DNA from: Stappia sp. BW2
GTDB lineage: Bacteria; Pseudomonadota; Alphaproteobacteria; Rhizobiales; Stappiaceae
DNA length: 64,000 bases
Reading direction: 5' to 3'
Assembly (NCBI RefSeq): GCF_008107695.1
Contig: NZ_VIRG01000066.1
Span: 992,001 to 1,056,000, forward strand
Shown piece by piece: positions 6,804 to 19,938 of the stretch. Below the pieces are notes generated by a model. The model was not told where the DNA came from and made no database searches. It worked only from the letters and a program-made list of their open reading frames with translations. Within the stretch, counting starts at the first letter, position 1. Every line of letters starts with the position of its first letter. The position numbers and the translations under genes are program-made.

Positions 6804-7154
6804 TTAGGCAAGCGCCGCGATGACGATGATCTCGACCTTGTATTCCGGCGCTGCCAGCTTGGATTCACCAGCTGCACGGGCCGGCGGATTGGCCGGGTCA
6901 ACCCAGGCGTCCCAGATCTTGTTCATCTCGGCAAAGTCCTTCATGTCGTCCAGCCAGATGGTGGCCTGAAGAATGCGGCTCTTGTCGCTTCCGGCCTGTG
7001 CCAGAAGAGCGTCGATGCGGTCCAGAATGGTCTGGGTCTGGTTGGTGACAGTGTCGCCCGGATTGCCGACCTGGCCGGCGAGATAAACGAGATCGCCGTG
7101 GATGACGGCCTGGCTCATGCGCGGGCCAACTTCCAGCCGTTTGATGTCGGACAT
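6804..7154 (-). CDS. RidA/YjgF-family enamine/imine deaminase
   Basis: 116 residues, the usual RidA length. It carries the family features SQAVIHGDLVYLAGQV near the N-terminus, TxxxLDRIDALLAQAG in the middle and an arginine in PARAAGES before a C-terminal VEIIVIAAL strand. RidA proteins hydrolyse reactive 2-aminoacrylate and imine intermediates released by dehydratases and amino acid oxidases. It is the last gene of the ten-gene operon, 36 bases after a DauA-like dehydrogenase, the kind of enzyme whose imino-acid product RidA removes. That pairing supports a real catabolic role here. It is a divergent member of the family, so imine specificity is not certain. Confidence 0.88.
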   Translation of the reverse strand: MSDIKRLEVGPRMSQAVIHGDLVYLAGQVGNPGDTVTNQTQTILDRIDALLAQAGSDKSRILQATIWLDDMKDFAEMNKIWDAWVDPANPPARAAGESKLAAPEYKVEIIVIAALA

Positions 7155-7190
7155 GATTGAATTCCTTCTAGTCTTGAAAGAGACGCCCGC

Positions 7191-8291
7191 TCAGAACAAG
7201 CGGGCGGGATCGAGAGCGGTCACGACCTTTTCGGGCAGCTCGCTCGGGTGCCTGAGACAAAGATCCGCAACGAGCCGGGACAGCGCTGGCGCCGTTTGTA
7301 CGCCGTAGCCCCCCTGACCGGCAAGCCAGAAAAACCCTTCCGCGTCAGGCGCGAAACCAACCACAGGTGTGCGATCCGCAACGAAGCTGCGCAAGCCCGC
7401 CCAGTTCCGCTCCACGCGGGTGACAGGCATGGTCACGGCCTGTTCAAAGCGATGCAGGCCTTCGGCCAGAACCATGTCGTCAGCCCAGGCATCATGCGGT
7501 TCGACGGGATCTTCATCGGCGGGTGACACCATGAACTTTCCTGCGTCCGGTTTGACGTACCATTGCTCCGACGCACTGGCGACGAGCGGCCATTTCGTAA
7601 TATCGACACCGTCCGGAGGTGGCACGATTGCGGCCGAGCGGCGCATGGGCACGAGCCCTATCTTCCGAGCGCCCGCGAGACCCGCAATCTGATCCGCCCA
7701 GGCTCCGGCGGCATTGATGAGAACCGGAGCCTCAAACACGCCCTTGGGCGTTTCGACACGCCACCTGTCTCCGCTCCTGAGAATGCGCTGTGCCGGTGCT
7801 TCCATGACGAACCGTGCCCCGGCCTTGCGTGCAAGCCGCGCAAAGCCCTGCAACAGCCGGTCGACGTCGATATCCTGCGCGTCCCGCTCGATGGCGGCGG
7901 CAGCAATGCACTCCTTGCGGAGCAACGGAAACAGGGCAACGGCTTCGTCCGCCGTCAGGACCTCCATGCCTTCGGTACCATCCAGATATGCCTGGAAGGC
8001 GTCCAGTTCGTCCTCGGTCGCAATCAGCATTTCCCCGCGGGGCGACAACAGGCTGTCGTCGGAAATTCCTTCCGGGCTCTTCAGAACCGGTTCAGAAGCC
8101 GCATTCAATGCCCGCAAGGTGGCATTGCCGTAGTTGCGGATGAAGATGGCAGCCGAGCGGCCGGTCGCGTGACGGCCGAGCGCATCTTCCATTTCCAGCA
8201 CGGTGACTTTCGCTTCCGGAGCAAGCCGCGCAGCGGCGCCAGTTCCGGCGATGCCCCCACCGATGATCAGAAAATCCGATGTTTCGATCAT
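7191..8291 (-). CDS. FAD-dependent D-amino acid dehydrogenase (DauA-like)
   Basis: 366 residues of the DAO fold. The N-terminal FAD motif is IIGGGIAGTGAAARLA, followed by GRHATGRSAA. Later blocks NAAGAWADQIAGLAG, WAGLRSFVADRTPVVG and FFWLAGQGGYGVQT closely match D-arginine dehydrogenase (DauA), which oxidises D-arginine, D-lysine and other D-amino acids to imino acids. That resemblance is from memory, not a search. The ATG overlaps the upstream deacetylase stop as ATGA (8288-8291), indicating translational coupling. With ridA downstream, the expected chemistry is amino acid to imino acid to keto acid plus ammonia. The substrate in this operon could be a D- or beta-type diamino acid. Confidence 0.87.
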   Translation of the reverse strand: MIETSDFLIIGGGIAGTGAAARLAPEAKVTVLEMEDALGRHATGRSAAIFIRNYGNATLRALNAASEPVLKSPEGISDDSLLSPRGEMLIATEDELDAFQAYLDGTEGMEVLTADEAVALFPLLRKECIAAAAIERDAQDIDVDRLLQGFARLARKAGARFVMEAPAQRILRSGDRWRVETPKGVFEAPVLINAAGAWADQIAGLAGARKIGLVPMRRSAAIVPPPDGVDITKWPLVASASEQWYVKPDAGKFMVSPADEDPVEPHDAWADDMVLAEGLHRFEQAVTMPVTRVERNWAGLRSFVADRTPVVGFAPDAEGFFWLAGQGGYGVQTAPALSRLVADLCLRHPSELPEKVVTALDPARLF

Positions 8292-9310
8292 GCGTCCTGA
8301 AACCCTGTCAGGAAACTGGTGAGGTTTTGGCCCAGTTCTTCCGACAAGTATCCGCCTTCCTGCACGAGCAGCACCGGCAGCCCGAGCTTCGCGATAGCGG
8401 CACCGATCCGTCCGAACCCGGGCGTCGTGATAGCCAGTCCCTTGAGAGGATCGTTCTCGTAGGCATCAAGCCCCAAGGCAACAACAAGAACGTCGGTGCC
8501 GAATGCCCTGATATGATCGAATGCCGTTTCCAGGGTTTTCAGATAGTCCTCATCGCCCGTGCCGCGCACGAGCGGCAGATTAAGGTTACAGCCTCGTCCA
8601 GCGCCCTCGCCGCGCTCATGGCCGTGCCCCCAGAAGAACGGATAGAACCGTACCGGATCGGCATGCAGCGAGACGGTGAGCACGTCACCGCGCTCATAGA
8701 AGATGCCCTGCGTGCCGTTGCCGTGGTGGACATCGATGTCGAGGATCGCCGGCCGCTTGCCTGCCTTCAAAAGCCTTTCGGCGGCAATGCCGGAGTTGTT
8801 CAGAAAACAGAAGCCGCCCGCCAGATCGCCAAAGGCATGGTGGCCGGGCGGGCGCGACAGCACGTAAGCGGCCTGCTCCCCGGCTGCCATCAAGTCCGCG
8901 CCGTGAATTGCGCTTTGGGCAGACCAATAAGCCGCCTCCCAGGTGCCCGCGGCGATGGGGCAACTGGTATCGGCCTGGTGGAAACCGGCCTGACCGACTG
9001 CCGAGCGCGGATAGCTTGCCGTGCGTCGGTCCGGATGAATGTTCGGGATAACCTCGTCAGAGGCTCCCTCGATCCGGCTCCAGCGCTCATGAATCGTTTG
9101 AAGAAACACCAGGTATTCCGCCGAGTGGAGCGCGGCAATCGGACCAAGACCATGATCTTCCGGCTGCTCGAAACGGCAGCCGGCCGCTTTGGCTCCTGCT
9201 GTCAGGACCTCGATGCGTTTCGGCTGTTCCGGATTGGCCAGCCGGGTTCCGTTCGCCATGAAATGCTTGGGGTCGTGCGCCCATTGGCGGTCGTCGAAAA
9301 TGGCTTTCAT
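8288..9310 (-). CDS. Acetylpolyamine amidohydrolase / histone-deacetylase-family deacetylase
   Basis: 340 residues of the arginase-deacetylase superfamily. Visible catalytic parts are the His dyad in RPPGHHAFGD, the zinc ligands in DIDVHHGNGT and LGLDAYENDP, and the catalytic tyrosine region EGGYL near the C-terminus. Bacterial relatives such as AphA remove acetyl groups from N-acetylated putrescine, cadaverine or related amines. It overlaps the GNAT gene upstream and the dehydrogenase downstream by four bases each. In the pathway I propose it would remove the acetyl group from a 4-acetamidobutyryl product or from imported N-acetyl diamino acid. It is cytoplasmic, with no signal peptide. Confidence 0.9.
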   Translation of the reverse strand: MKAIFDDRQWAHDPKHFMANGTRLANPEQPKRIEVLTAGAKAAGCRFEQPEDHGLGPIAALHSAEYLVFLQTIHERWSRIEGASDEVIPNIHPDRRTASYPRSAVGQAGFHQADTSCPIAAGTWEAAYWSAQSAIHGADLMAAGEQAAYVLSRPPGHHAFGDLAGGFCFLNNSGIAAERLLKAGKRPAILDIDVHHGNGTQGIFYERGDVLTVSLHADPVRFYPFFWGHGHERGEGAGRGCNLNLPLVRGTGDEDYLKTLETAFDHIRAFGTDVLVVALGLDAYENDPLKGLAITTPGFGRIGAAIAKLGLPVLLVQEGGYLSEELGQNLTSFLTGFQDA

Positions 9311-9795
9311 GAGCGGTGCCTCAATTTGTCGAATGCAGGTGCGCGCAGGTCGAAGACGGTTTCCCCTTCCCGAGGCGTAAAGTCGAGCCGTTCATAAAAA
9401 CGGCGAGCATCCGGATTGTCGTGATAAACGGCGAGACGCAGAAAAACCGGGGACCAGCTTTCAGGCGCAAGGTCGAGGCTCGCGGCAAGCAGACGCTGGC
9501 CCAGCCCTTCTCCACGCGTGTCGCCATCGACCCATAGATCGGAGACATAGAGACCGCAACCGCCGCGCGTCGTCGAGAAGATCGGCGAGGCCTGCAGGAC
9601 ACCGAGCGTTCGGCCGTCAGAGTTCCGGATCGCCAGCAGCGCAAAAAAGGCTGGCGCCTCCATGAAACCGTGGCGGATGACGTCGTCGAGACCGGCGACA
9701 TGGGTATCGCCCATATCGGCGGAAAGCCGGAGCAATGCCGCGTGAAGCCTTTCGGCATCATCCCGCTCCGCGCGTCTGATCGTAATGCCGCTCAT
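9307..9795 (-). CDS. GNAT-family N-acetyltransferase
   Basis: 162 residues. The N-terminal ITIRRAERDDAERL strand-helix and the acetyl-CoA-binding segment VSDLWVDGDTRGEGLGQRLL (RGxGxG-type, about residues 91-110) identify a GNAT enzyme, with YHDNPDARRFYERLDF closing the fold. Its outline resembles diamine acetyltransferases (SAT1-like), but that is a weak similarity. I use the ATG at 9795, two bases after the stop of the upstream cleavage-enzyme gene; an in-frame TTG at 9801 is possible. Sitting between a beta-keto acid cleavage enzyme and a deacetylase, it could acetylate the distal amine of the substrate before transamination. Confidence 0.85.
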   Translation of the reverse strand: MSGITIRRAERDDAERLHAALLRLSADMGDTHVAGLDDVIRHGFMEAPAFFALLAIRNSDGRTLGVLQASPIFSTTRGGCGLYVSDLWVDGDTRGEGLGQRLLAASLDLAPESWSPVFLRLAVYHDNPDARRFYERLDFTPREGETVFDLRAPAFDKLRHRS

Positions 9796-9797
9796 GA

Positions 9798-10727
9798 TCA
9801 AAAGGCCGTCCCGCCGGCGCCCTTGAGACCAAGCATCTGCCTGGCGTCCTCAGGCGTCGCAACCTTGCGTCCAAGCTCTTCGACAATCTTGCGGATCTTG
9901 GTGACCTGCTCCGCGTTGGAGCGGGCAAGTGCCCCCCTGGCGATATACAGATTGTCTTCCAGACCGACGCGCACATGACCGCCCATGCTGGCGGCAATTG
10001 TCGCAAAGGGGATCTGCTGGCGGCCGGCCGCCAAGACGGAGAACAGATAGTCGTCACCGAACAGCTTGTCGGCCATCCGTTTCATGTGCTGCAGGTTCTC
10101 CGGATCGGCCCCGATGCCGCCCAGAACACCGAAGACGAACTGGATGAAGAACGGCGGTTTGACGAGCCCCCGGTCTGCGAAGTGGCGCAGCATGTAGAGA
10201 TGCCCGACGTCATAGCACTCGAACTCGAAGCGGGCACCGCGCTGCTGTCCCATCTGGGTCAGCACGAATTCGATGTCGCGCGGCGTGTTCTTGAAGACGA
10301 GATCGTCCGTGCCGCGCAGGAACGGCTGCTCCCAGTCGTGCACCCACGTGTCGTAGCGGTCGGCCAGCGGATAGAGCGCGAAGTTCATCGTGCCCATGTT
10401 GAGCGAGCACATTTCCGGCTCGGCATTCAGAGGACCGGCAAGCCTGTCCTCCAGGCTCATGATGGCGCTGCCCCCGGTCGACAGGTTGAGCACCGCGCCG
10501 CAACCTGCCTTGACCTCCGGCAGGAAGGCCATGAAATCCGCTTCCCGGGCCGACGGCTGACCCGTTTCGGGGTTGCGTGCATGCAGGTGCAGAATGGCCG
10601 CGCCGGCCTCGGCAGCGCCGATGGCCTGGCCCGCGATTTCTGCAGGTGTCACAGGCAGATGGGGTGACATTGTGGGTGTGTGAATGGAGCCCGTGATGGC
10701 ACAGGTGATGATGATCTTGTCTGTCAT
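9798..10727 (-). CDS. Beta-keto acid cleavage enzyme (BKACE, DUF849; Kce-like)
   Basis: 309 residues. It opens with IIITCAITGSIHTPTMSPHLPVTP and has HLHARNPETGQP near residue 50, both hallmarks of the family of 3-keto-5-aminohexanoate cleavage enzyme, with further conserved blocks EMCSLNMGTMNF and FVFGVLGGIGA. Members are zinc-dependent TIM barrels that react a beta-keto acid with acetyl-CoA to give acetoacetate and a shortened acyl-CoA. It is 9 bases after the aminotransferase gene, which could supply the beta-keto acid from a beta-amino acid. Substrates vary across the family (3-keto-5-aminohexanoate, dehydrocarnitine, others), so the substrate must come from context. Confidence 0.92.
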   Translation of the reverse strand: MTDKIIITCAITGSIHTPTMSPHLPVTPAEIAGQAIGAAEAGAAILHLHARNPETGQPSAREADFMAFLPEVKAGCGAVLNLSTGGSAIMSLEDRLAGPLNAEPEMCSLNMGTMNFALYPLADRYDTWVHDWEQPFLRGTDDLVFKNTPRDIEFVLTQMGQQRGARFEFECYDVGHLYMLRHFADRGLVKPPFFIQFVFGVLGGIGADPENLQHMKRMADKLFGDDYLFSVLAAGRQQIPFATIAASMGGHVRVGLEDNLYIARGALARSNAEQVTKIRKIVEELGRKVATPEDARQMLGLKGAGGTAF

Positions 10728-10736
10728 GTCTTTATT

Positions 10737-12092
10737 TTAGCTGGCTCTGGCCTGTTGCTGCGAAATCCTGTCGAGGAACTGGCGGAGAGAGAGGTCGAGG
10801 CCTTCGATGATCTCGGCGACATGATCCGGGGTCGAGATCATGGGCGGCGCGATCAGGAAATGATCGCCGCTGTAACCACCTCGCGTTCTGCGGGAATAGA
10901 TGATCAGGCCGTTTTCATAGGCAATGTCGACCAGCTCGTTGAAGGCGTTCAACTCCTTGGCAAGCGGCCTCAGGCTTGCCCTGTCCTCGACCAGTTCGAA
11001 CGCCAGCAGCAGCCCTTCGCCGCGCACGTCGCCGATGATCGAATAGCGGTCCATCAGCTTCTTCAGTTCGCTCTTCAGGAGCGCTCCGGTCGTGGCTGCG
11101 TTCTGGCAGAGGTTTTCCCGCTCGATCTCCTCCAGCACCGCAAGACCGGCCGAACAGGCAAGCGGATTACCGGCATAGGTGAAGCCATGTAGGAAACCGC
11201 CATTGTCGAGCACATTGGCGACAATGTCCCTGTGCGCGATCATGGCCCCGAGGGGTGAATAGCCTGCGGCAAAGCCCTTGGAGATGACCAGAATATCCGG
11301 CTCGACATTCCAGTGTTCGCCGGCGAAGAATTTGCCGGTGCGCCCGCCTCCGGTCATGACCTCGTCATGGATCAGCAGGACCCCGTAGCGCGTGCAGATC
11401 TCGCGGATGCGCTGCATGTAGCCTTTCGGCGGTACGAGCGCGCCGGTGGAAGCGCCACCAATCGGCTCGACGATGAAGGCGAGGATCGTCTCCGGGCCTT
11501 CGGACAGGATCTTTGCCTCCAGCATGTCGGCATAATGCTGCCCCGTTGCCTCGTCGTCCGGGTCCAGTCCGTCGAGATAGGCACGCGGCGCCGGAATCTT
11601 CGGCATCGGCCGCATCATCGGATCGAAAGGTGCGGTGAGCGGCGCGTAGCCCGTCAGGGCCAGCGCCCCGAGTGTGCAGCCGTGATAACTCGGCTCGCGC
11701 GAGATGATCTTGTAGCGCTGCGCCTCGCCAATCGCGACCGCGTTCTGGCGGGCGAGCTTCATGGCGCTTTCCACCGCTTCCGAACCACCGGAAACAAAGA
11801 ACACCTTCTCCAGCCCCTCAGGTGCCAGCTCGGCTGTCCTGGCGGCCAGAAGCTCAGCAGGTTCGGTTTCGAAGTGGAGGCGATAACCGAAGGTGGACTT
11901 GTCCATCTGCTTGCGCATTGCCTCAAGCACGCGCGGGTTGGAATGGCCAATGTTGCAGACCATCGCCCCGGAGGAGCCATCGAGATAGCGCTTGCCATCG
12001 ACATCCCACATGTAGACGCCGCGCGCCTGATCCAGCACGGGCCGGCGCTGGCGGGACTGATAGAACAGATGAGAGGTTTGCGGACGGCTCAT
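10737..12092 (-). CDS. Class III PLP-dependent aminotransferase
   Basis: 451 residues, full length for the family. Conserved parts include VDGKRYLDGSSG, VFFVSGGSEAVESAMKLAR, LIHDEVMTGGGRTGKFF (the PLP-ring aspartate) and ISKGFAAGYSPLGAM (the Schiff-base lysine). These enzymes transaminate omega- and beta-amino groups such as those of GABA, beta-alanine or diamino acids. The start overlaps the ATPase gene stop as ATGA at 12089-12092. Immediately upstream of a beta-keto acid cleavage enzyme, the economical reading is that it converts a beta-amino acid to its beta-keto acid, for example N6-acetyl-beta-lysine to 3-keto-6-acetamidohexanoate. Confidence 0.92.
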   Translation of the reverse strand: MSRPQTSHLFYQSRQRRPVLDQARGVYMWDVDGKRYLDGSSGAMVCNIGHSNPRVLEAMRKQMDKSTFGYRLHFETEPAELLAARTAELAPEGLEKVFFVSGGSEAVESAMKLARQNAVAIGEAQRYKIISREPSYHGCTLGALALTGYAPLTAPFDPMMRPMPKIPAPRAYLDGLDPDDEATGQHYADMLEAKILSEGPETILAFIVEPIGGASTGALVPPKGYMQRIREICTRYGVLLIHDEVMTGGGRTGKFFAGEHWNVEPDILVISKGFAAGYSPLGAMIAHRDIVANVLDNGGFLHGFTYAGNPLACSAGLAVLEEIERENLCQNAATTGALLKSELKKLMDRYSIIGDVRGEGLLLAFELVEDRASLRPLAKELNAFNELVDIAYENGLIIYSRRTRGGYSGDHFLIAPPMISTPDHVAEIIEGLDLSLRQFLDRISQQQARAS

Positions 12093-13174
12093 GTGGCAGC
12101 TCCCGGCAGGGCTGCGCAGTCACGCGGGCGGAAGCGGACGGAAACGTCCGAACCTTCCTGAAAAGGATGCTGATCGATCATGTTGATCACCTGAAGCTGC
12201 TGGTCGCCGACACGCACGAAATATCGCGCCGCCTGACCCTGGTAGTCCACCGCCTCGACCTTGCCGTCGAGCGCGATGCGATCATCCACCGGAGCGGATT
12301 TTTCCGTCAGTAGAAGTTTTTCCGCCCGAATTACAAGCTGCGCAGGACCAGGCTGCGACAGGTTGGGCGCTTTTTCCTTCGGCACGTTGACCTTGCCGAA
12401 GTGAGGCAGTTCGAGAGACAGCTCCTGCCCGTTCACCGCCTGGCAGGTGGCAGGCAGAATGTTGGAAACGCCCAGGAAACGCGAAACGAACTCGCTTGCG
12501 GGGGTGTTGTAGACGTCCTGCGGCGTGCCGATCTGCTCCACCCGCCCGTTGGACATCACGACGATCCTGTCGGACATGGCAAGCGCTTCGGACTGGTCGT
12601 GGGTGACGAAGACGGTGGTAATACCGATCCGGTGCTGGATGCGCTTCAGCTCCACGCGCATGTCCTCGCGCAGGTTGGCATCAAGTGCGGACAGCGGCTC
12701 GTCCAGCAACAGAACATCGGGTTCGATGACGATGGCCCGCGCCAGGGCGATACGCTGCTGCTGGCCGCCGGAAAGCTGTTTGGGATAACGGTCGCTGACG
12801 TGGGGCAGTTGCACCAGTTCCAGCGCGTCGCGCACTTTCTTTTCGGCATCCGTTTTCGAAATATCGCGGTACTTCAGGCCGAAAGCCACGTTTTCTGCAA
12901 TCGTCTTGTGCGGGAACAGCGCATAATTCTGAAAGACGAGACCAAGGTTCCGCCTGTGGATCGGCACATCGTTGATGCGCTGGCCCTTGATGGTGATGTC
13001 GCCTTCGGTGGGGTCGATGAGACCGGCAATCATCCTGAGGGTCGTCGTCTTGCCGCATCCTGAGGGACCGAGCAGCGTGACGAAGCTTCCGTCCGGGATG
13101 TCCATGCTCATCCGATGAACGGCGGTGAAGCTGCCGAACGTCTTGACGATGTTGTTGAGGGAAACCGCGCTCAC
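12089..13174 (-). CDS. ABC transporter ATP-binding protein (PotA-like)
   Basis: 361 residues: Walker A GPSGCGKTT (about 35-43), Q-loop VFQNYALFP, signature LSGGQQQRIALARA, Walker B VLLLDEPLSALD and the switch histidine in VFVTHDQSEA, followed by a C-terminal TOBE-type regulatory domain (about 280-355). This is the polyamine/spermidine-putrescine (PotA) or iron/2-aminoethylphosphonate importer ATPase class. It is separated from the binding-protein gene by an 85-base gap holding a perfect hairpin, and overlaps the aminotransferase gene by four bases. It energises uptake of the substrate that the downstream enzymes degrade. Confidence 0.94.
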   Translation of the reverse strand: MSAVSLNNIVKTFGSFTAVHRMSMDIPDGSFVTLLGPSGCGKTTTLRMIAGLIDPTEGDITIKGQRINDVPIHRRNLGLVFQNYALFPHKTIAENVAFGLKYRDISKTDAEKKVRDALELVQLPHVSDRYPKQLSGGQQQRIALARAIVIEPDVLLLDEPLSALDANLREDMRVELKRIQHRIGITTVFVTHDQSEALAMSDRIVVMSNGRVEQIGTPQDVYNTPASEFVSRFLGVSNILPATCQAVNGQELSLELPHFGKVNVPKEKAPNLSQPGPAQLVIRAEKLLLTEKSAPVDDRIALDGKVEAVDYQGQAARYFVRVGDQQLQVINMIDQHPFQEGSDVSVRFRPRDCAALPGAAT

Positions 13175-13205
13175 GCAAATTCTCCAGATGCTGGGGGGAG
13201 AACGG

Positions 13206-13230
13206 CCTTCCGGCAGCGACTGCCGGAAGG
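13206..13230 (-). repeat. Intercistronic hairpin between binding-protein and ATPase genes
   Basis: Perfect 11-bp arms CCTTCCGGCAG / CTGCCGGAAGG with a three-base loop, directly after the solute-binding protein stop and before the ATPase start. There is no T-run, so it more likely protects the 3' end of the binding-protein message than terminates transcription, giving more binding protein than ATPase. Confidence 0.65.
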
Positions 13231-13259
13231 TATCGGTTCAGGGATGGGCCGTACCGGGC

Positions 13260-14399
13260 TCAGTAACCCTTCTGGATCCGTCCGAACATCTTGGACCATG
13301 CCTGCTCGTGGCTGTTCCAGTATTCCGGATTGGCGAAGGTCAGACCATCGAGCGTTCCTGTCGGATCGAAGGCCGGCAGGGTCGGGATCTTCTTGCCGAG
13401 GTCTACCTTTTTCGGGTCAAGCGCCGGCGGATAGTTCTGGCCTTCGGCGACCGCGATGGAGGTTTCGGGCGCCAGCATGAAGTTCAGCAGCTCTTCACAG
13501 GCTTCCATCGGCGAGCCCTTGATCACGAACAGGCATTCCTGCCAGCCGAAACCGTTGGGCGGATCGATATAGCCAATGTCGTGCCCCTGCTCCTGAAGCG
13601 CATAGATCCGGCCGGACCAGCCTTCGGTGACGTAGATTTCCTCTTCCGCCAGAAGGCTCATCAACTCCGCTCCGGACTGCCAGTATTTCAACAGCAGATC
13701 GCGGTTGGTGCGCACGGCCTGCCAGACGGCATCCATATCCGTTGCGTCGTTCGGATCCTGGCCGGTCTGCAGTGATCCGTACCAGACGCGGGTGCGCCAG
13801 TCGGACCAGGCGCCGATCTTGCCCTTGTAGGCTGCATCGATCAGGAGTTTCGCGCCCTTCTCCTTGGCTTCGTCGTCGGAGATGTATTTCCGGTTATAGG
13901 CAATGCCCGTGGTGCCATAGTCATACGGCACGCACGACAGCTTGCCGTCGGTGACACTGCGGAAGACGTCGGTCAGCTTCGGGATCACGTATTTCAGGTT
14001 CGGGATGTTGTCCTCGTTCAGGGTCGAGTTCAGCCCGAGATTGACATAGCGCGCATAGTCGAAGACGCCGGACAGATGCGCGATGTTGTATTCGCCTTCC
14101 TGGCTGGCCTTCACACGCGACAGATATTCATCCCCCCCGCCGAAGGTGCCGTCGACAACCTTGATGCCCGTCTTTTTCGTATAGGGATCGAAGGCGTATT
14201 TGCGGAAGGCTTCGGAAACGACCCCGCCCCAACCGTCGAAGCGGACTTCCTCGGTCGCGGCCATGGCATGGCGGGCAAAGGGTGTCTGCACACCGTAGGC
14301 GAGACCGGCTGCCCCGATCAGCCCGAGAAACTTGCGGCGGTCGAGATCGCCGTTGAGATAGCGTTCGCGCAGACGCTCATAGCGTTTGGTATTGTCCAT
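13260..14399 (-). CDS. Tat-exported extracellular solute-binding protein (PotD-like)
   Basis: 379 residues. The N-terminus has a twin-arginine signal, DRRKFLGLIGAAGLA (R21-R22) and a cleavage region near RHAMA (about 50), so it is exported folded. The mature part has the PotD/PotF-type fold, with FDGWGGVVSEAFRKYAFDPY, CVPYDYGTTGIAYN and TEGWSGRIYALQEQG. The ATG at 14399 is used; a GTG at 14411 is also possible. It is the periplasmic receptor of a polyamine-class ABC importer, with permeases upstream and the ATPase downstream. Ligands of this class include spermidine, putrescine and other cationic or zwitterionic compounds. Confidence 0.92.
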   Translation of the reverse strand: MDNTKRYERLRERYLNGDLDRRKFLGLIGAAGLAYGVQTPFARHAMAATEEVRFDGWGGVVSEAFRKYAFDPYTKKTGIKVVDGTFGGGDEYLSRVKASQEGEYNIAHLSGVFDYARYVNLGLNSTLNEDNIPNLKYVIPKLTDVFRSVTDGKLSCVPYDYGTTGIAYNRKYISDDEAKEKGAKLLIDAAYKGKIGAWSDWRTRVWYGSLQTGQDPNDATDMDAVWQAVRTNRDLLLKYWQSGAELMSLLAEEEIYVTEGWSGRIYALQEQGHDIGYIDPPNGFGWQECLFVIKGSPMEACEELLNFMLAPETSIAVAEGQNYPPALDPKKVDLGKKIPTLPAFDPTGTLDGLTFANPEYWNSHEQAWSKMFGRIQKGY

Positions 14400-14451
14400 C
14401 TTGGTTTCCACTCTGGTTCTTTTGTCGGTTACTTGCTTTGATCGCGCGGTT

Positions 14452-15237
14452 CTAACCGCCGCGCTGCATGGCCATCCGCCGGGCGATTGCCAGCCCGAGA
14501 AGCGGCAGGCCGACGGTGAGGAAAATCATCACGGTGCCGAGCGCATTGATCTCCGGAGAGATGGAATTGCGCAGCATGGCAAAGATCTGGGTGGGCACGG
14601 TTTCGACCCCGCCCGGCTTCCAGAACAAGGTGCCGGTGATGTCGTCAAAGCTGATGGTGAAGGCGAACAGCATGCCGGCAAACACCGCCGGAGCCAGCAG
14701 GGGCAGCGTGATCTGGAAGAAGGCCTGCACAGGGCTGGCGCCAAGACTGAGCGCGGCTTCCTCATAGTCGCGGCGGATCCCGACAAGACGCGCCTGCACC
14801 ACAAGGATGACAAAGGGCAGCGTGAAGATGACGTGCCCCATGAGGAGCAGGAAGAAGCTTTTATTGATCGACAGGAAATTGAGGAACAGCAGCAAGGCGA
14901 CCGCCAGCACCACCTCCGGCACCAGAATGGGCGCGATCAGGAGGGTGGAGATCATGTTGCGGCCAGGCACGTCGTACCGCACCAGGGCAAGGCTTGCCAG
15001 AACGCCAAGTGTCGTGGAGATCAGCGCCGTCAGCGCACCCAGAACAATCGAAGTCTGGAACGCCCGCAAAATCGCGTCGTTTCCGGCCAGTTCGACGAAC
15101 CAGCGAAACGAGAAACCGGTCATCGGGAAACTGCCGAACTGGCTGGCGTTAAAGCTGAGAAGCACCACCACCACGACCGGCAGAAACAGGAAGAGATAGA
15201 CGAGCAGCGTATAGGCCCGGATCAGTTGCCAGCCCAT
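14452..15237 (-). CDS. ABC transporter permease (PotC-like)
   Basis: 261 residues with about six membrane segments and the binding-protein-dependent permease EAA loop near EEAALSLGASPVQAFFQITLP (residues 165-185), where it contacts the ATPase. The overall pattern, including an N-terminal FLFLPVVVVVLLSFN helix, is that of PotC. It overlaps the first permease gene by one base at 15237 and precedes the binding-protein gene by 52 bases. It forms the inner-membrane channel with the other permease. Confidence 0.93.
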   Translation of the reverse strand: MGWQLIRAYTLLVYLFLFLPVVVVVLLSFNASQFGSFPMTGFSFRWFVELAGNDAILRAFQTSIVLGALTALISTTLGVLASLALVRYDVPGRNMISTLLIAPILVPEVVLAVALLLFLNFLSINKSFFLLLMGHVIFTLPFVILVVQARLVGIRRDYEEAALSLGASPVQAFFQITLPLLAPAVFAGMLFAFTISFDDITGTLFWKPGGVETVPTQIFAMLRNSISPEINALGTVMIFLTVGLPLLGLAIARRMAMQRGG

Positions 15238-16103
15238 CAGCCAAGCCCCTTCATCAGTTGGCCCATGCCGAGATAGTGGTTGTAGATCAAAACCAGGGCG
15301 CCGAGGACGGCGAGCAGCATGAGCGACAGCGCCGAGCCGAGCGGCCAGTTGAGCTGGGTGATGATCGCTTCAAAGACCAGATTGGCGAACATGGCGTCCG
15401 TCGGACCGCCCAAAACCAGCGGGGTGATATAGGTGCCCGCGCTCAACACGAAACAGAGCAGGCCGCCTGCGGCCAGCCCCGGCAAGGACAGCGGCAAGGT
15501 GACCTCCCGGAACGCCTGCCAGCGGGTGGAGCCGAGCGAGCAGGCCGCGTCTTCCAGCGAGACATCGATCCCTTCCAGCGCCACATAGACGTTCAGCACC
15601 ATGAAGGGCAGAAGGAAGTGCACGAGGCCGAGGATCACCGTTGGCTCGTTATAGAGCATCTGAACCGGTTCGGAGACGATGCCGAGATTGAGCAGCACCC
15701 AGTTGACCGCGCCGGACACACCCAGAATGTTGATCCAGGACATGGTCCGGATGATGTAGCTGATCCAGAACGGCAGCATCAGCAACAGCAGCAGCAATGC
15801 CTTGTTGCCGCGCGAGCGGGCGATGAAATAGGCCGCTGGATAGCCCATGACAGCGCAGGCAATTGTCGTGATCGCCGCAATCCTCAGCGTGCCGAGCAGG
15901 ATGTCCCGATAGAAGGGGTCAGTCAGCGCCTCATTCCAGTTGTCCAGATAAAAGCCCGCCTGATCAGCGCCGGTGGCTGTGCGCAGCCAGAAGGAATAGA
16001 CCACAATGAAAACGAGCGGAATGAAGAGCAGCAATCCGACGGCGGTCAACGCAGGCGAAAGGAGTATCCATGGCTGCCGTTTTTCCCGCGCCTCAACGCT
16101 CAT
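15237..16103 (-). CDS. ABC transporter permease (PotB-like)
   Basis: 288 residues, about six membrane segments, with the EAA loop LEDAACSLGSTRWQAFREV near residues 195-215 and the PotB-type LPFWISYIIRTMSWI segment. I use ATG 16103 because GGCGGGG lies upstream; an in-frame TTG at 16133 has no ribosome-binding site. It is the first gene of the ten-gene operon. Its promoter must lie in the 108 bases between it and the divergent LysR gene, where there is a long imperfect palindrome. Confidence 0.92.
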   Translation of the reverse strand: MSVEAREKRQPWILLSPALTAVGLLLFIPLVFIVVYSFWLRTATGADQAGFYLDNWNEALTDPFYRDILLGTLRIAAITTIACAVMGYPAAYFIARSRGNKALLLLLLMLPFWISYIIRTMSWINILGVSGAVNWVLLNLGIVSEPVQMLYNEPTVILGLVHFLLPFMVLNVYVALEGIDVSLEDAACSLGSTRWQAFREVTLPLSLPGLAAGGLLCFVLSAGTYITPLVLGGPTDAMFANLVFEAIITQLNWPLGSALSLMLLAVLGALVLIYNHYLGMGQLMKGLG

Positions 16104-16166
16104 GCGCTCGAACCCCGCCAAATGCCTTGCCAAAATTGCTTGACTTCAGCGTCGCAGACGGGTGTT

Positions 16167-16214
16167 CATTGATCAAATAGATAGTGGAAATTATAACTAT
16201 AGATCTGATCAATG
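16167..16214. promoter_or_regulatory. LysR operator-like palindrome in the divergent promoter region
   Basis: Two arms of 20 bases, CATTGATCAAATAGATAGTG and its near-complement ending GATCAATG, share 16 of 20 positions as an inverted repeat centred at 16190.5. It lies between the operon (start 16103) and the LysR gene (start 16212), and includes the LysR start codon. The position and T-n-A-type symmetry are as expected for a LysR activation site that also represses its own gene. Confidence 0.6.
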
Positions 16215-17180
16215 ACCGAGCGATTGCGCCCAATCCATGCGGAACGGCTAGCCCGCGAACTGGACTGGAACCTGCTGCGAACCTTCGTCGTACTGGCCCA
16301 GTCCGGAAGCGTGACTAAAGCTGCCGACAGGCTGCGCCTCAAGCAGCCGACCGTTTCCAGTGCGCTGAAGCGGCTGGAGGACCGGTTGGAGCGCAAGCTC
16401 ATCAACCGCAAGCCGGGCCAGTTCGAACTGACGGAAGCCGGTCAACTGCTGCTCAAGGAAGCCATCGAGATCCAGGGCTCCATCCTGCGGCTTGGAACCC
16501 TGATGCGCGACGTGACCGACGAGATCCGCGGCCATGTCGAAATCGCCATGGCCAGTCATGTGGTCTCTCCGCTTTACGACGACACCTTGCGTGCCTTTCA
16601 TGAACGACATCCGGCGGCAACGCTCACCATCAAGGTATCCGCCAGCAAGGACGCGCTGGAGGCCGTCACTTCGCGCAGGGCTTCGCTCGCAATCTGCCTG
16701 GTGCGCGAGCGCAATCCGAAGCTTGAATATCGGCGCCTTTTCCGGGAGTTCTTCGGCCTTTTCTGTGGTCCACCCCATCCGCTGTTCGGCAAGACAAACC
16801 TGACAAAGACCGACCTTGCGGGCCAGTCCTCGGTCAGTTTCGTCACCGACCGGCTGGAAGATGCACTGCGAGCGGTCACCTTGATGCGTGCCGAAGCCGA
16901 TCTGGAAGACAGGGTTGTCGGCACTTCGGCCAATCTCGAAGAAGTGCGGCGCATGATCATCGCCGGACTGGGAATCGGCCCCCTGCCCGTCCATGTCGCC
17001 AAGCGGGACGTCCGCGAGGGGCTGTTGTGGCAATTGCCGCCCTATGACGCGCTGCCGGAGATCGACGTGCACGTGGTCTGGAACCCGAAAGCGAAACTCA
17101 ACCGTGCCGAGCAGGCCCTTCTCGACATGCTTCTTGAAAAGATACGGGAAACGCCAATCGAGGACCGCACCTACAGGTGA
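16212..17180 (+). CDS. LysR-family transcriptional regulator
   Basis: 322 residues. An N-terminal winged helix-turn-helix (about 17-76) contains WNLLRTFVVLAQSGSVTKAADRLRLKQPTVSSALKRLE, here described by its core SVTKAADRL and QPTVSSALKRLE. The C-terminal periplasmic-binding-protein-like effector domain spans about 105-310. A stop codon lies two codons upstream in frame, so 16212 is the earliest start; no good ribosome-binding site is seen, so translation may be leaderless or begin at TTG 16224. It is divergent from the ten-gene operon and is its likely activator, with the operon substrate or an intermediate as co-inducer. Confidence 0.9.
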   Translation: MTERLRPIHAERLARELDWNLLRTFVVLAQSGSVTKAADRLRLKQPTVSSALKRLEDRLERKLINRKPGQFELTEAGQLLLKEAIEIQGSILRLGTLMRDVTDEIRGHVEIAMASHVVSPLYDDTLRAFHERHPAATLTIKVSASKDALEAVTSRRASLAICLVRERNPKLEYRRLFREFFGLFCGPPHPLFGKTNLTKTDLAGQSSVSFVTDRLEDALRAVTLMRAEADLEDRVVGTSANLEEVRRMIIAGLGIGPLPVHVAKRDVREGLLWQLPPYDALPEIDVHVVWNPKAKLNRAEQALLDMLLEKIRETPIEDRTYR

Positions 17181-17342: not shown

Positions 17343-18425
17343 ATGAATGGTGTTCGGTTTGCCTGGAAAGCGATTTTCCTGGGGCTGGTGACAATTGCCC
17401 TTTTTCAGTCGCCAGCAAGCGCGTCGGAAGCCTTCTTCAAAGGTGGCTGGACGCTGCAGCGGGATGCCTCGTCCCTCAGGTTCCAGTCCGTGAAGAACCT
17501 GACCATCGTGGAATCAAGCTCCTTCGCCGAAATTGAAGGCGGCATAGATGAAACCGGCAGCGCCAAGGTTCGCATCTATCTGGACTCGATCGATACCAAG
17601 ATCGACCTCAGAAACGTGCGCATGCGGTTCCTGTTCTTCGAGACGTTCGAATTCCCCGAGGCGGTGATCACAACGCAGATCGATGCATCGGCTCTTGCCG
17701 ACCTTCCAACAGCGAAACGCAAGATCATACCGCTTGATTTCAAGCTGGATCTTCACGGGATTTCCAAAACCTACCAGTCCAATGTTGCCGTGACCTATCT
17801 GAGCGAGGATCTGGTTGCCGTGTCGAGCACTGCGCCGATTTCTGTTGCCGCTTCCGACTTCAACCTCGGCGGCGGCATCAAGAAACTCGAGGAAGCCGCC
17901 GGCGTGGTGATCGTGCCGTCTGCAACGGTTTCCTTCGATTTCGTCTTTGCACGGAAAGCCGGTAAACCGGTTCAGAGCGTTTCGGCCGATGAGGCCCCGC
18001 AGGTCGCAGCAGCCCAGTCGGCGGCGAGCACCGCCCTGGAACCGGAAGGCAATCTGGACGCCGAAGCCTGCATTGGCCGCTTTGAAATCCTGTCCCGCAC
18101 CGACAATATCTACTTTCCGAGCGGAAGCTCACAGCTTGACCCGAGAAGCCAGCCTCTTTTGAACAGCCTGGTCGATATCATCACGAGATGCCCGGGTCTG
18201 GTCATCGAAGTTGGCGGCCACACCGACAGCGATGGGAGCGACACCTCAAACAAGGCTCTGTCCGAACGCAGGGCCGGAGCGGTCAAGCAATATCTTGTCT
18301 CCAAGAAGGTTCCCGAAAGCAGGATCAAGAGTGTCGGTTACGGGGAAAGCCGTCCTGTTGCCCCGAACACCTCGGCGGAAGGAAAACAACGCAACAGGCG
18401 GATAGAGTTTGTCGTTGTCGAATAG
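17343..18425 (+). CDS. YceI-like domain fused to an OmpA-like domain, secreted
   Basis: 360 residues. Signal peptide about 1-27 (ending SPASA). Residues about 32-205 form a YceI-like lipocalin-type barrel (GGWTLQRDASSLRFQSVKN start, then LDFKLDLHGISKTYQSNV). A linker is followed by an OmpA-family peptidoglycan-binding domain (about 243-360), with IYFPSGSSQLDP, VEVGGHTDSDGS-type core and NRRIEFVVVE at the end. YceI domains bind isoprenoid or amide lipids; OmpA domains bind diaminopimelate in peptidoglycan. The fusion would therefore be a lipid-binding periplasmic protein tethered to the wall. Seven bases separate it from the caspase-like gene, so they are probably co-transcribed. Confidence 0.85.
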   Translation: MNGVRFAWKAIFLGLVTIALFQSPASASEAFFKGGWTLQRDASSLRFQSVKNLTIVESSSFAEIEGGIDETGSAKVRIYLDSIDTKIDLRNVRMRFLFFETFEFPEAVITTQIDASALADLPTAKRKIIPLDFKLDLHGISKTYQSNVAVTYLSEDLVAVSSTAPISVAASDFNLGGGIKKLEEAAGVVIVPSATVSFDFVFARKAGKPVQSVSADEAPQVAAAQSAASTALEPEGNLDAEACIGRFEILSRTDNIYFPSGSSQLDPRSQPLLNSLVDIITRCPGLVIEVGGHTDSDGSDTSNKALSERRAGAVKQYLVSKKVPESRIKSVGYGESRPVAPNTSAEGKQRNRRIEFVVVE

Positions 18426-18432
18426 GACCACC

Positions 18433-19938
18433 ATGCATCGCATTACAATCGCATTCCTCATGGCGCTGACCTTGACCATCGGAATGCTCACGAACAGAGC
18501 GCATGCGGCATCGCGGCTGGCTCTGGTGGTCGGCAATGGCGCCTATTCGACAGTCACACCGCTGGACAATCCGGTAAGAGATGCGGAACTGATGGCCGAC
18601 GCGCTGCGCGAGGTGGGCTTTGAGGTCACGCTCGTGACCAACTCCAGCCAGAACGAGATGATCACGGCAATCTCCAACTTTGGCAGCCGTTTGCGGACCG
18701 CGGGCGAGGACGCGACCGGGCTTTTCTATTATGCCGGGCACGGTGTGCAATCCTTCGGCACGAACTTTCTGCTTCCTGTCGACATAGAGCTTCAGGATGC
18801 TGCAGACCTCAGCCTGGTCGGGGTTCCGGCACAGGCCGTCTTGCGGCAGATGTTCTCGGCCCGCAATCGGACCAATATCGTCATTCTCGATGCCTGTCGG
18901 AACAATCCGTTCGTTACGATTCCGGACCTGCGCGACAATGGCCTTGCGGAAATGAAGGCCCCCAGGGGCACCTTCCTGGCCTACTCGACAGCCCCGGGCG
19001 ATGTTGCTCTTGACGGTGTCGACGGCAACAGCCCCTTCACCGAAGCCCTGGCCCGGCACATGCAGACACCCGGAATGTCCGTCGAAACCCTTTTCAGGGA
19101 AGTTCGGATCGACGTTCTGAAGGATACGAACAACCAGCAGACACCGTGGGATACGTCGTCACTCACCGTTGATTTCCAGTTCCTTCCAGCCAAGGCGCCT
19201 ACCCAGGAAGAAGTCGAACTTCGCCAGATCTGGGACTCGGTCAAACTCAGCAACGATCCGCTACAGGTGCTCTTGTTCCTGCGCGCGCACCCGGACAGCC
19301 GCTATTCCGGAGAAGCCAGGAAGCTCCTGACGGTCCTGATGGAGAAGGAAGCACAGCCCGTCGCATCGGCTAAAGCTCCGCCGCAAGCGGCCTCCGAGCC
19401 GGCTGCCCCCCAGACGAGCGAACGCGAGATGATCGAAACAGCGCGTCGTGCAGGCACGGCAAGCGCCTATCAAACCTATCTTGACGCCTATCCAAACGGG
19501 GCGTTTGCCGAACTGGCGCGTCTGGAACAGCAGACGATCCTGAACAAGGAGCAGAGCAAGGATCCGGTTGCCACTCAGCCACCGCCCGAAGACACGCCTG
19601 TGGCCACGCAGCAGCCCGCAACGACCAAGGATCAGAAAGGCCCGCCTGCGGTGATTGCGTTCAATGCGCCGCTTGCTATGGGAACGCCTGACATCGCCAG
19701 CCGAAGCATTTCGGAGCTGATCACAGGGTCACCGAAATTCCCGCCGATCGAAGGCCTGCCGGAGGCTGTCTGGAAGGACAAGACCTGCGCTGCGTGCCAT
19801 CACTGGGAACAGGCCAACCTGTGCGACCAGGCCAAGACCTATGTCGCTGACAAGTCCCGCGCCGTGGCAAAGGAACACCCCTATGGCGGTGTCTTCAAGA
19901 ATGCCTTGCGGCTCTGGGCCGAACAGGGATGTCCCTGA
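18433..19938 (+). CDS. Secreted caspase-like (peptidase C14) protein with C-terminal CXXCH
   Basis: 501 residues; signal peptide about 1-25. The p20-like caspase fold spans about 26-260, with RLALVVGNGAYS, the catalytic histidine in YYAGHG (H103) and the catalytic cysteine in LDACRNNPF (C155). A low-complexity linker with a repeat-like segment (about 330-380) leads to a C-terminal block (about 440-501) containing CAACHHWEQANLCDQ. ATG 18433 follows AGGA; an earlier TTG overlaps the upstream gene. Bacterial orthocaspases cleave after basic residues. The tail cysteines could bind heme or zinc. It pairs with the YceI-OmpA gene seven bases upstream. Confidence 0.88.
   Translation: MHRITIAFLMALTLTIGMLTNRAHAASRLALVVGNGAYSTVTPLDNPVRDAELMADALREVGFEVTLVTNSSQNEMITAISNFGSRLRTAGEDATGLFYYAGHGVQSFGTNFLLPVDIELQDAADLSLVGVPAQAVLRQMFSARNRTNIVILDACRNNPFVTIPDLRDNGLAEMKAPRGTFLAYSTAPGDVALDGVDGNSPFTEALARHMQTPGMSVETLFREVRIDVLKDTNNQQTPWDTSSLTVDFQFLPAKAPTQEEVELRQIWDSVKLSNDPLQVLLFLRAHPDSRYSGEARKLLTVLMEKEAQPVASAKAPPQAASEPAAPQTSEREMIETARRAGTASAYQTYLDAYPNGAFAELARLEQQTILNKEQSKDPVATQPPPEDTPVATQQPATTKDQKGPPAVIAFNAPLAMGTPDIASRSISELITGSPKFPPIEGLPEAVWKDKTCAACHHWEQANLCDQAKTYVADKSRAVAKEHPYGGVFKNALRLWAEQGCP

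Follow-up and report, generated by a model that had tools for sequence, protein, structure and literature searches.

A conserved alphaproteobacterial operon as a candidate route for the acetyl-protected breakdown of beta-lysine

The window analyzed here, a 64,000-nucleotide stretch of the Stappia sp. BW2 contig NZ_VIRG01000066.1 (positions 992,001 to 1,056,000, in a genome of 6.4 Mb), contains a run of ten minus-strand genes, from 16133 down to 6804 and divergent from a LysR gene, which an initial annotation had proposed as an operon for the catabolism of beta-lysine or its N-acetyl form. Each of the ten genes is an intact open frame, and in a Pfam scan every product exceeds the curated cut-off of its own family (two BPD_transp_1, SBP_bac_8, ABC_tran with TOBE_2, Aminotran_3, BKACE, Acetyltransf_1, Hist_deacetyl, DAO and Ribonuc_L-PSP), in agreement with the enzyme classes originally named (Table 1). 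The accompanying description of the genes as mostly overlapping by ATGA was generous: five of the nine junctions do overlap, four of them by four bases (three ATGA, one TTGA) and one by a single base (TGATG), but only three read ATGA and the other four junctions have gaps of 40, 85, 9 and 36 bp. The TTGA junction holds only if the GNAT acetyltransferase gene starts at TTG; Met3 of this protein is invariant in 25 aligned operon copies, and the true start may be ATG 9795. For the first permease, ATG 16103 is the most likely start, in place of TTG 16133, because that ATG is kept in all 15 aligned spacers.

Table 1. The operon, its divergent regulator gene and the spacer between them (window positions; roles given as proposed are predictions)
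Feature	Position	Strand	Basis
LysR-type regulator	16212..17180	+	Open reading frame, LysR models; divergent from operon
Candidate LysR operator, four half-sites	16168..16213		Conserved block and half-site scan
ABC importer permease, PotB-like	15237..16103 (listed open reading frame to 16133)	-	BPD_transp_1; PotB model 194 bits, cut-off 348
ABC importer permease, PotC position	14452..15237	-	BPD_transp_1
Solute-binding protein, distant PotD/PotF-like	13260..14411	-	SBP_bac_8; putrescine/spermidine-binding proteins among PDB matches
ABC importer ATPase, PotA-like	12089..13174	-	TIGR01187 (potA subfamily) 357.5 bits, cut-off 355.6
Class III aminotransferase; proposed N6-acetyl-beta-lysine transaminase (specificity inferred)	10737..12092	-	Aminotran_3 344 bits; core gene
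BKACE; proposed 3-keto-6-acetamidohexanoate cleavage enzyme	9798..10727	-	PF05853 367 bits; NF053538 502.9; PDB 3e02, 3e49, 8rio
GNAT acetyltransferase; proposed beta-lysine N6-acetyltransferase	9307..9801	-	Acetyltransf_1; thialysine acetyltransferase-like profile
HDAC-superfamily deacetylase; proposed 4-acetamidobutyrate / 4-acetamidobutyryl-CoA deacetylase	8288..9310	-	Hist_deacetyl 229.8 bits
DauA-like FAD dehydrogenase, accessory	7191..8291	-	DAO; DauA 292 bits
RidA family imine/enamine deaminase, accessory	6804..7154	-	Ribonuc_L-PSP 96 bits

Conservation of the gene set was assessed at the best 80 of 576 relatives of the beta-keto acid cleavage enzyme (BKACE), obtained in one BKACE protein scan of named genomes. 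Gene frames at these loci were called by codon usage; length-based calling seemed to be misled by antisense frames in high-GC DNA (one frame, L034:12282-13859, has no Pfam match and is possibly antisense). Genes for an aminotransferase, a GNAT and a histone deacetylase (HDAC) family protein lie beside the BKACE gene on the same strand at 47 of the 80 loci, which bears out the co-occurrence of the four enzymes that the initial annotation had suggested looking for. The remaining loci have aminotransferase and HDAC (six), aminotransferase and GNAT (three, including L026, where a contig end cuts the locus and a 63-bit HDAC piece is present), GNAT and HDAC (two), HDAC alone (two), aminotransferase alone (one) or none of the partners (19, representing other contexts, many of them in Azospirillum). 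The core loci belong to Alphaproteobacteria and to three gammaproteobacterial metagenome-assembled genomes (L034, L056, L058), and the closest BKACE locus among the best 80 of 576 is that of Roseibium aggregatum IAM 12614 (L006; 97% identical). A second sample was drawn from 299 genomes of the phylum, 32 of which have a homologue of the window deacetylase at 1e-90; the regions of 28 were fetched (those of the Stappia genome itself, G055, G111 and G171 were left out), and they hold 30 HDACs. Eight of these 30 sit in a cluster, six with aminotransferase, BKACE and GNAT (one weak, L128), one without a GNAT (L124) and one, L123, counted as linked through its GNAT alone because the contig ends.

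The content around the core varies: among the 47 core loci, 35 have a polyamine-type importer, 21 the FAD dehydrogenase gene, 17 the RidA gene and 15 both of the latter. The 12 core loci that lack a polyamine-type importer comprise five with an amino-acid importer and seven with neither (L034, L043, L052, L056, L063, L080, L085), some of the seven because the contig is short. The FAD dehydrogenase and RidA, named in the initial annotation as members of the pathway, are thus present in the window operon but fall outside the core, and we treat them as accessories because of these frequencies (21/47 and 17/47). One might argue from this variability, and from the loci that lack one core gene, that the genes are grouped for unrelated reasons and form no single pathway; the four-gene core at 47 of 80 loci, together with recurring operator half-sites and deacetylase residues that track linkage (both described below), already disfavors that explanation, to which we give almost no credence. 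The FAD enzyme resembles the D-arginine dehydrogenase DauA over nearly its whole length (292 bits), keeping the glutamate in LLSPRxEM and the Arg of RRSA and of WAGLRSF, and differs from it in the HYT segment, which here reads IFI; the roles in DauA of the conserved arginines, the Glu and the HYT segment are assumed. The partner of DauA is DauB, whereas in the window a RidA takes the place of a DauB-type enzyme. Speculatively, the optional FAD enzyme and RidA might deaminate a stereoisomer on which the aminotransferase does not act.

At nine of the 80 loci that have aminotransferase and BKACE (L013, L018, L027, L032, L041, L044, L046, L048, L050), and at L124, L126 and L127 of the second sample, the polyamine-type importer is replaced by an amino-acid importer with an SBP_bac_3 binding protein. 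This importer was identified by a Pfam run on the genes of L018, whose binding protein is closest to glutamine- and other amino-acid-binding proteins, followed by nopaline- and histidine/arginine-binding proteins; it matches lysine/arginine/ornithine-binding proteins at 94 bits. LysR homologues adjoin many of the related clusters (the window product reaches the cut-off of none of the 25 LysR models listed). The spacer between the regulator and importer genes carries a block, around TATCTATTTGA, that is conserved in 15 aligned spacers (the window and 14 chosen loci), and four half-sites, ATTGAT (16213-16208), ATCTAT (16204-16199), ATCTAT (16182-16177) and ATCAAT (16173-16168), at offsets of 0, 9, 31 and 40, the first of which overlaps the LysR start codon. 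LysR-importer spacers often carry ATCWAT or ATWGAT half-sites at these offsets: a spaced pair is found in 33 of 39 polyamine-importer spacers (all but L017, L023, L026, L029, L038 and L121) and in 8 of the 12 with an amino-acid importer, where mononucleotide shuffles predict 0.01 for either group, although these counts, above all 33/39, are partly circular because the spacings were picked after the motif had first been seen. No pair occurs in five other spacers (L064, L066, L085, L139, L143). The simplest reading would be one regulator and one inducer with the importer swapped, so that the imported compound should share features of polyamines and of amino acids, as beta-lysine does.

A profile (A1) built from the 25 operon GNATs and compared with the sequences of solved proteins gave its best match with thialysine acetyltransferase (99.6 bits), followed by the unnamed 2fe7 (98.8), and lower matches with SSAT2 (85.5), less defined GNAT groups (80 and 74), SSAT1 (about 70) and the ornithine N5-acetyltransferase NATA1 (66). 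Thialysine is a lysine analogue that is acetylated at its terminal amine. By similarity, the operon GNAT would belong to the thialysine/SSAT2/NATA1 type, which modifies lysine-like compounds at their terminal amine. GNATs were also sought in the genomes of five of the six loci that have aminotransferase, BKACE and HDAC without a linked GNAT (all but L031) and in those of L046, L064 and L066, with L035 (207 bits) and L050 (159 bits) as positive controls. A strong GNAT (150 to 192 bits) is present elsewhere in the genomes of L032, L041, L064 and L066, in the last two tens of kb from the BKACE and HDAC genes, on a contig equal in length to theirs, and the regions around five unlinked GNATs (L194-L198) contain no aminotransferase, BKACE or HDAC. 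In L195 the unlinked GNAT adjoins a gene of the DMFA2_C type. The idea that GNAT-less variants use a pre-acetylated substrate was considered and set aside, because the genome search was mixed.

The window BKACE matched four NCBIfam BKACE models and exceeds the cut-off only of NF053538, over its full length (502.9 bits, cut-off 430), the model of a 3,5-dioxohexanoate:acetyl-CoA acetone transferase. Assignment to the Kce class (250.5 bits, cut-off 382), to the bifunctional KAL_CLE class (187, cut-off 725) and to the 3-oxoadipate class (178, cut-off 350) was rejected, and a model of the dehydrocarnitine type, with a positively charged substrate, is not among the four families matched, in a comparison that did not test that class directly. 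Kce belongs to the same family and shares its acetyl-CoA-dependent cleavage chemistry; its substrate keeps a free amine, unlike the capped substrate that we propose for the window enzyme. The 59 aligned operon BKACEs differ from 19 relatives in other contexts at 25 listed columns, among them Phe197 (Thr in 14 of the 19) and Ala88 (Leu in 11). The window enzyme also resembles BKACE15 of Paracoccus denitrificans (8rio, 372 bits), which acts in vitro on beta-keto acids that are uncharged and five to six carbons long, including beta-ketopentanoate (PMC11961710). In this literature the reaction named by NF053538 is that of a substrate used in vitro, no physiological role is established for BKACE15, and its acceptance of malonate semialdehyde is termed new-to-nature by the authors. 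A study of the family (PMC4922564) sets a group with hydrophobic and non-charged polar substrates apart from those with positive and negative ones, and the window BKACE would belong to the former. With its amine capped, 3-keto-6-acetamidohexanoate should offer such an enzyme a six-carbon acid with an uncharged tail, whereas the uncapped form would not be uncharged.

The closest solved structures to the deacetylase are acetylpolyamine amidohydrolases (APAHs; 3men, 308 bits, and 3q9b, 281 bits), and for the FAD enzyme DauA, so the names first given to both stand. Many close homologues are annotated as 'histone deacetylase family protein' or 'acetoin utilization deacetylase AcuC-like enzyme' (among the best 120 of 7913). 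In an alignment with three of the five solved APAHs (omitting 3q9c, a near-copy, and 6phr), the window enzyme keeps His157, His158, Asp191, Asp193, His195, Asp282 and Tyr321, presumably the catalytic and metal-binding residues. Its Arg221 is invariant among the operon HDACs, in an alignment of 55 that comprises the window and 54 loci, and is replaced in the three APAHs by Glu (3q9b, Glu223), Asn (3men) or Phe (9gkz); it stands two residues before Tyr223, a position that we take, from APAH and HDAC8 structures, to line the tunnel. In the phylum sample, Arg96 and Arg221 occur together in eight of eight cluster-linked HDACs and in none of the 22 other homologues, 'other' meaning without a BKACE nearby (a distant aminotransferase of 110-243 bits is present at L133, L137 and L142, and a RidA at L145 and L146), and both residues are also found in the HDACs of L064 and L066, loci with BKACE and HDAC only. 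Arg96 alone is unspecific, being present in two paralogues from the Stappia genome, in 3men and in 7 of the 22 homologues outside the cluster; Arg221 alone is found in the outside homologue L138, in a second HDAC copy in L056 and in L090, a distant and badly aligned paralogue, the other three paralogues having Asn, Tyr and a gap in this column. The column of Glu117 of the Mycoplana ramosa APAH (3q9b) is Ser or Ala in all 55 operon HDACs. Two operon motifs, EVxPNxHP and HxxDTxCP, are absent from the three aligned APAHs and largely common to the nearest homologues outside the cluster. In HDACs, a glutamate at the rim gives cation specificity (HDAC10; Glu117 in APAH) and a rim lysine carboxylate specificity (HDAC6 domain 1) (PMC5454378); the position of Arg221 differs from these published gatekeepers. 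The presence of Arg221 near the tunnel mouth, where the APAHs have Glu, Asn or Phe, suggests by analogy that the deacetylase expects an anion such as 4-acetamidobutyrate or its CoA ester.

These features also bear on polyamine or acetylpolyamine breakdown, in which the GNAT and deacetylase would act on putrescine or spermidine and their acetyl forms, the aminotransferase would make beta-alanine or malonate semialdehyde products and the BKACE would cleave malonate semialdehyde. The Pot-like importer, the resemblance of the deacetylase to APAHs, the SSAT1 match of the GNAT profile and the acceptance of malonate semialdehyde by BKACE15 would all suit this explanation, as would the demonstration that PA0321 and PA1409 of P. 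aeruginosa are polyamine deacetylases (PMC4784309). However, Arg221 replaces the Glu, Asn or Phe of the three APAHs and the Glu117 position is Ser or Ala (3men and 9gkz also lack Glu117), it is not evident what a BKACE would do in polyamine breakdown, and variant clusters have an amino-acid-type binding protein. The Stappia genome moreover has four other HDAC-family genes, and about 125 bp separate one HDAC-family match from a region matching the succinate semialdehyde dehydrogenase (SSADH) model (C93:78315-80707), where an acetylpolyamine pathway is likelier. We consider polyamine breakdown quite improbable, and these comparisons make dehydrocarnitine and acetylputrescine, by which the initial annotation proposed to refute itself, less likely as substrates, the former only by way of the four BKACE models matched.

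From the gene content, the conserved linkage, the subfamily features and the shared operator motif we infer a substrate, an order of steps and a set of enzyme activities. The importer would take up beta-lysine (3,6-diaminohexanoate), and possibly also its N6-acetyl form; the GNAT would acetylate the terminal (N6) amine; the class III aminotransferase would convert the beta-amine to a ketone, giving 3-keto-6-acetamidohexanoate; the BKACE would cleave this with acetyl-CoA to acetoacetate and 4-acetamidobutyryl-CoA; and the HDAC-like enzyme would deacetylate 4-acetamidobutyryl-CoA, or 4-acetamidobutyrate after thioester hydrolysis, leaving 4-aminobutyrate for a general pathway. The acetyl group would serve as a temporary protecting group, because on chemical grounds a free N6-amine should cyclize onto the C3 ketone and 4-aminobutyryl-CoA should form a lactam. 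We assign a probability of roughly 0.55 to an acetyl-protected pathway by which imported beta-lysine or N6-acetyl-beta-lysine is broken down to acetoacetate and 4-aminobutyrate; the wider claim, an acetyl-protected route for some beta,omega-diamino acid, we hold with reasonable confidence. The same route might serve another such acid (for example beta-ornithine, 3,5-diaminohexanoate or a hydroxylated beta-lysine) and act only poorly on beta-lysine itself, given that the GNAT type, the uncharged BKACE class, the anionic deacetylase and the importer variant constrain charge and shape but not chain length, and that BKACE15 also takes beta-ketopentanoate (PMC11961710). We regard this as unlikely, although worth keeping in view. 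Against it, no other such acid is known to us as a widespread metabolite, or as one for which a route of this kind has been described biochemically. The initial assignment to beta-lysine therefore stands in part: the four classes form a conserved unit, and the GNAT and BKACE features, and less directly those of the deacetylase, point the same way, but the substrate has no direct support, every argument on specificity being one of similarity.

Beta-lysine is widespread as a methanogen osmolyte, in the modification of EF-P and as a part of antibiotics, and an aerobic Pseudomonas pathway for it is reportedly known biochemically from Barker's laboratory. The enzymes of that pathway include an N6-acetyl-beta-lysine transaminase (EC 2.6.1.65) and a 4-acetamidobutyryl-CoA deacetylase (EC 3.5.1.51), and we know of no sequence or gene assigned to either. 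As in that pathway, classes for acetylation, transamination, acetyl-CoA cleavage and deacetylation are encoded together here; the host is instead a Roseibium-like alphaproteobacterium, and an importer, a LysR gene and the optional FAD enzyme and RidA are added. The window deacetylase has a mass of 36.7 kDa, and the subunit of the purified Pseudomonas enzyme is said to be similar in size. It is possible, although we hold this only tentatively, that the operon is the complete aerobic beta-lysine pathway and its HDAC protein the sequence-orphan 4-acetamidobutyryl-CoA deacetylase, possibly also acting as a thioesterase. No title or abstract opening among the matches listed in the open-access literature searched deals with genes for beta-lysine breakdown, which is weak evidence of novelty. 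For use of the products, the Stappia genome encodes three SSADHs and two PcaI/ScoA-type CoA-transferase subunits over their cut-offs.

Genes resembling amide hydrolases recur at related loci. DMFA2_C-type (dimethylformamidase-like) genes, assigned by a Pfam scan of the L066 copy (similar to the N,N-dimethylformamidase beta subunit), are present at 5 of the 80 loci (L043, L057, L064, L066, L085) and at 5 of the 28 loci of the second sample (L122, L124-L127), and a creatininase-family gene is present at 3 of the 80 (L018 5688-6497, L044 5772-6563, L048 5662-6510), between the amino-acid binding-protein and permease genes of the variant cluster. Speculatively, these proteins may release the substrate from amides, and their recurrence would fit a cluster that mainly detoxifies or salvages beta-lysine freed from antibiotics, peptides or modified proteins, with growth secondary. 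We think this very unlikely: no such gene is among the ten in the window, and an importer with degradative enzymes suits nutrition better. At L064 (3595-8146), a TRAP transporter (DctP, DctQ, DctM) and a glucuronate-isomerase-family protein are encoded upstream of the DMFA2_C, BKACE and HDAC genes.

Several observations weigh against the proposed beta-lysine pathway. The core is incomplete at a number of loci: 6 of the 80 have aminotransferase, BKACE and HDAC with no linked GNAT, the HDAC is missing from L021 and L060 and the aminotransferase from L055 and L057, L046 has aminotransferase and BKACE only, and L064 and L066 have BKACE and HDAC only. The five GNAT-less genomes checked gave two strong GNATs elsewhere and three weak or absent matches, the weak matches in the whole search being those of L024 (51 bits), L044 (77) and L046 (44), with none in L036. 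The ligand of the solute-binding protein is not readable from homology, because its scores fall far below the Pot cut-offs (PotD 44.9 bits, cut-off 582; PotF 30.1, cut-off 636). Four of the 12 amino-acid-importer spacers (L013, L018, L046, L124) lack the half-site pair, as does L066, which has an amino-acid importer although it was counted as a control. The loss of Glu117 is not decisive, because two proteins named APAH lack it as well (Gly in 9gkz, Ser in 3men), and BKACE enzymes are described as promiscuous (PMC4922564). Neither a 4-aminobutyrate (GABA) aminotransferase nor an acetoacetyl-CoA synthetase exceeds its curated cut-off in the Stappia genome, and none of the 20 locus proteins scanned with Pfam is gabT or gabD, no systematic search of neighbors having been made. 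Finally, a KamA-type lysine 2,3-aminomutase was not found in the Stappia genome, and no KamA frame above 60 bits occurs in the 108 loci (80 and 28), a comparison that included no systematic search for other beta-lysine genes.

An aminomutase would be unnecessary for the proposed pathway, because uptake of beta-lysine would supply the substrate. Among 115 alphaproteobacterial genomes, 35 matched KamA at 1e-60, none over the cut-off, and 14 KamA neighborhoods were fetched and compared both ways with the cluster loci (of the four KamA query frames used in the locus comparison, only that of L149 looks truly KamA; the others are neighboring or overlapping frames). In L177 (3770-11267), a KamA-type gene lies about 3.7 kb from a gene whose 766-residue product has an HDAC-like part (207 bits), and in L172 and L178 frames of 330 residues, ATP-grasp-like by eye, adjoin KamA; these neighborhoods are possibly a separate beta-lysine system. 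Elsewhere in the window, plus-strand genes encode a multihaem cytochrome-like protein (2314-4269; CxxCH motifs, by eye) and an OmpA-like protein followed by a caspase-like protein (17343-19938; translations judged by eye).

If the proposed pathway is correct, the operon would provide genes for a degradation route described decades ago from enzyme work, and candidate sequences for its transaminase and deacetylase activities. Catabolism would here employ acetyl as a transient protecting group, which an HDAC-fold enzyme might strip from an acyl-CoA or a short acid. The cluster might then represent a widespread means by which Proteobacteria from marine and soil habitats consume the osmolyte N6-acetyl-beta-lysine, and its features would sharpen the annotation of HDAC-family and AcuC-like proteins and mark bacteria able to use beta-lysine.

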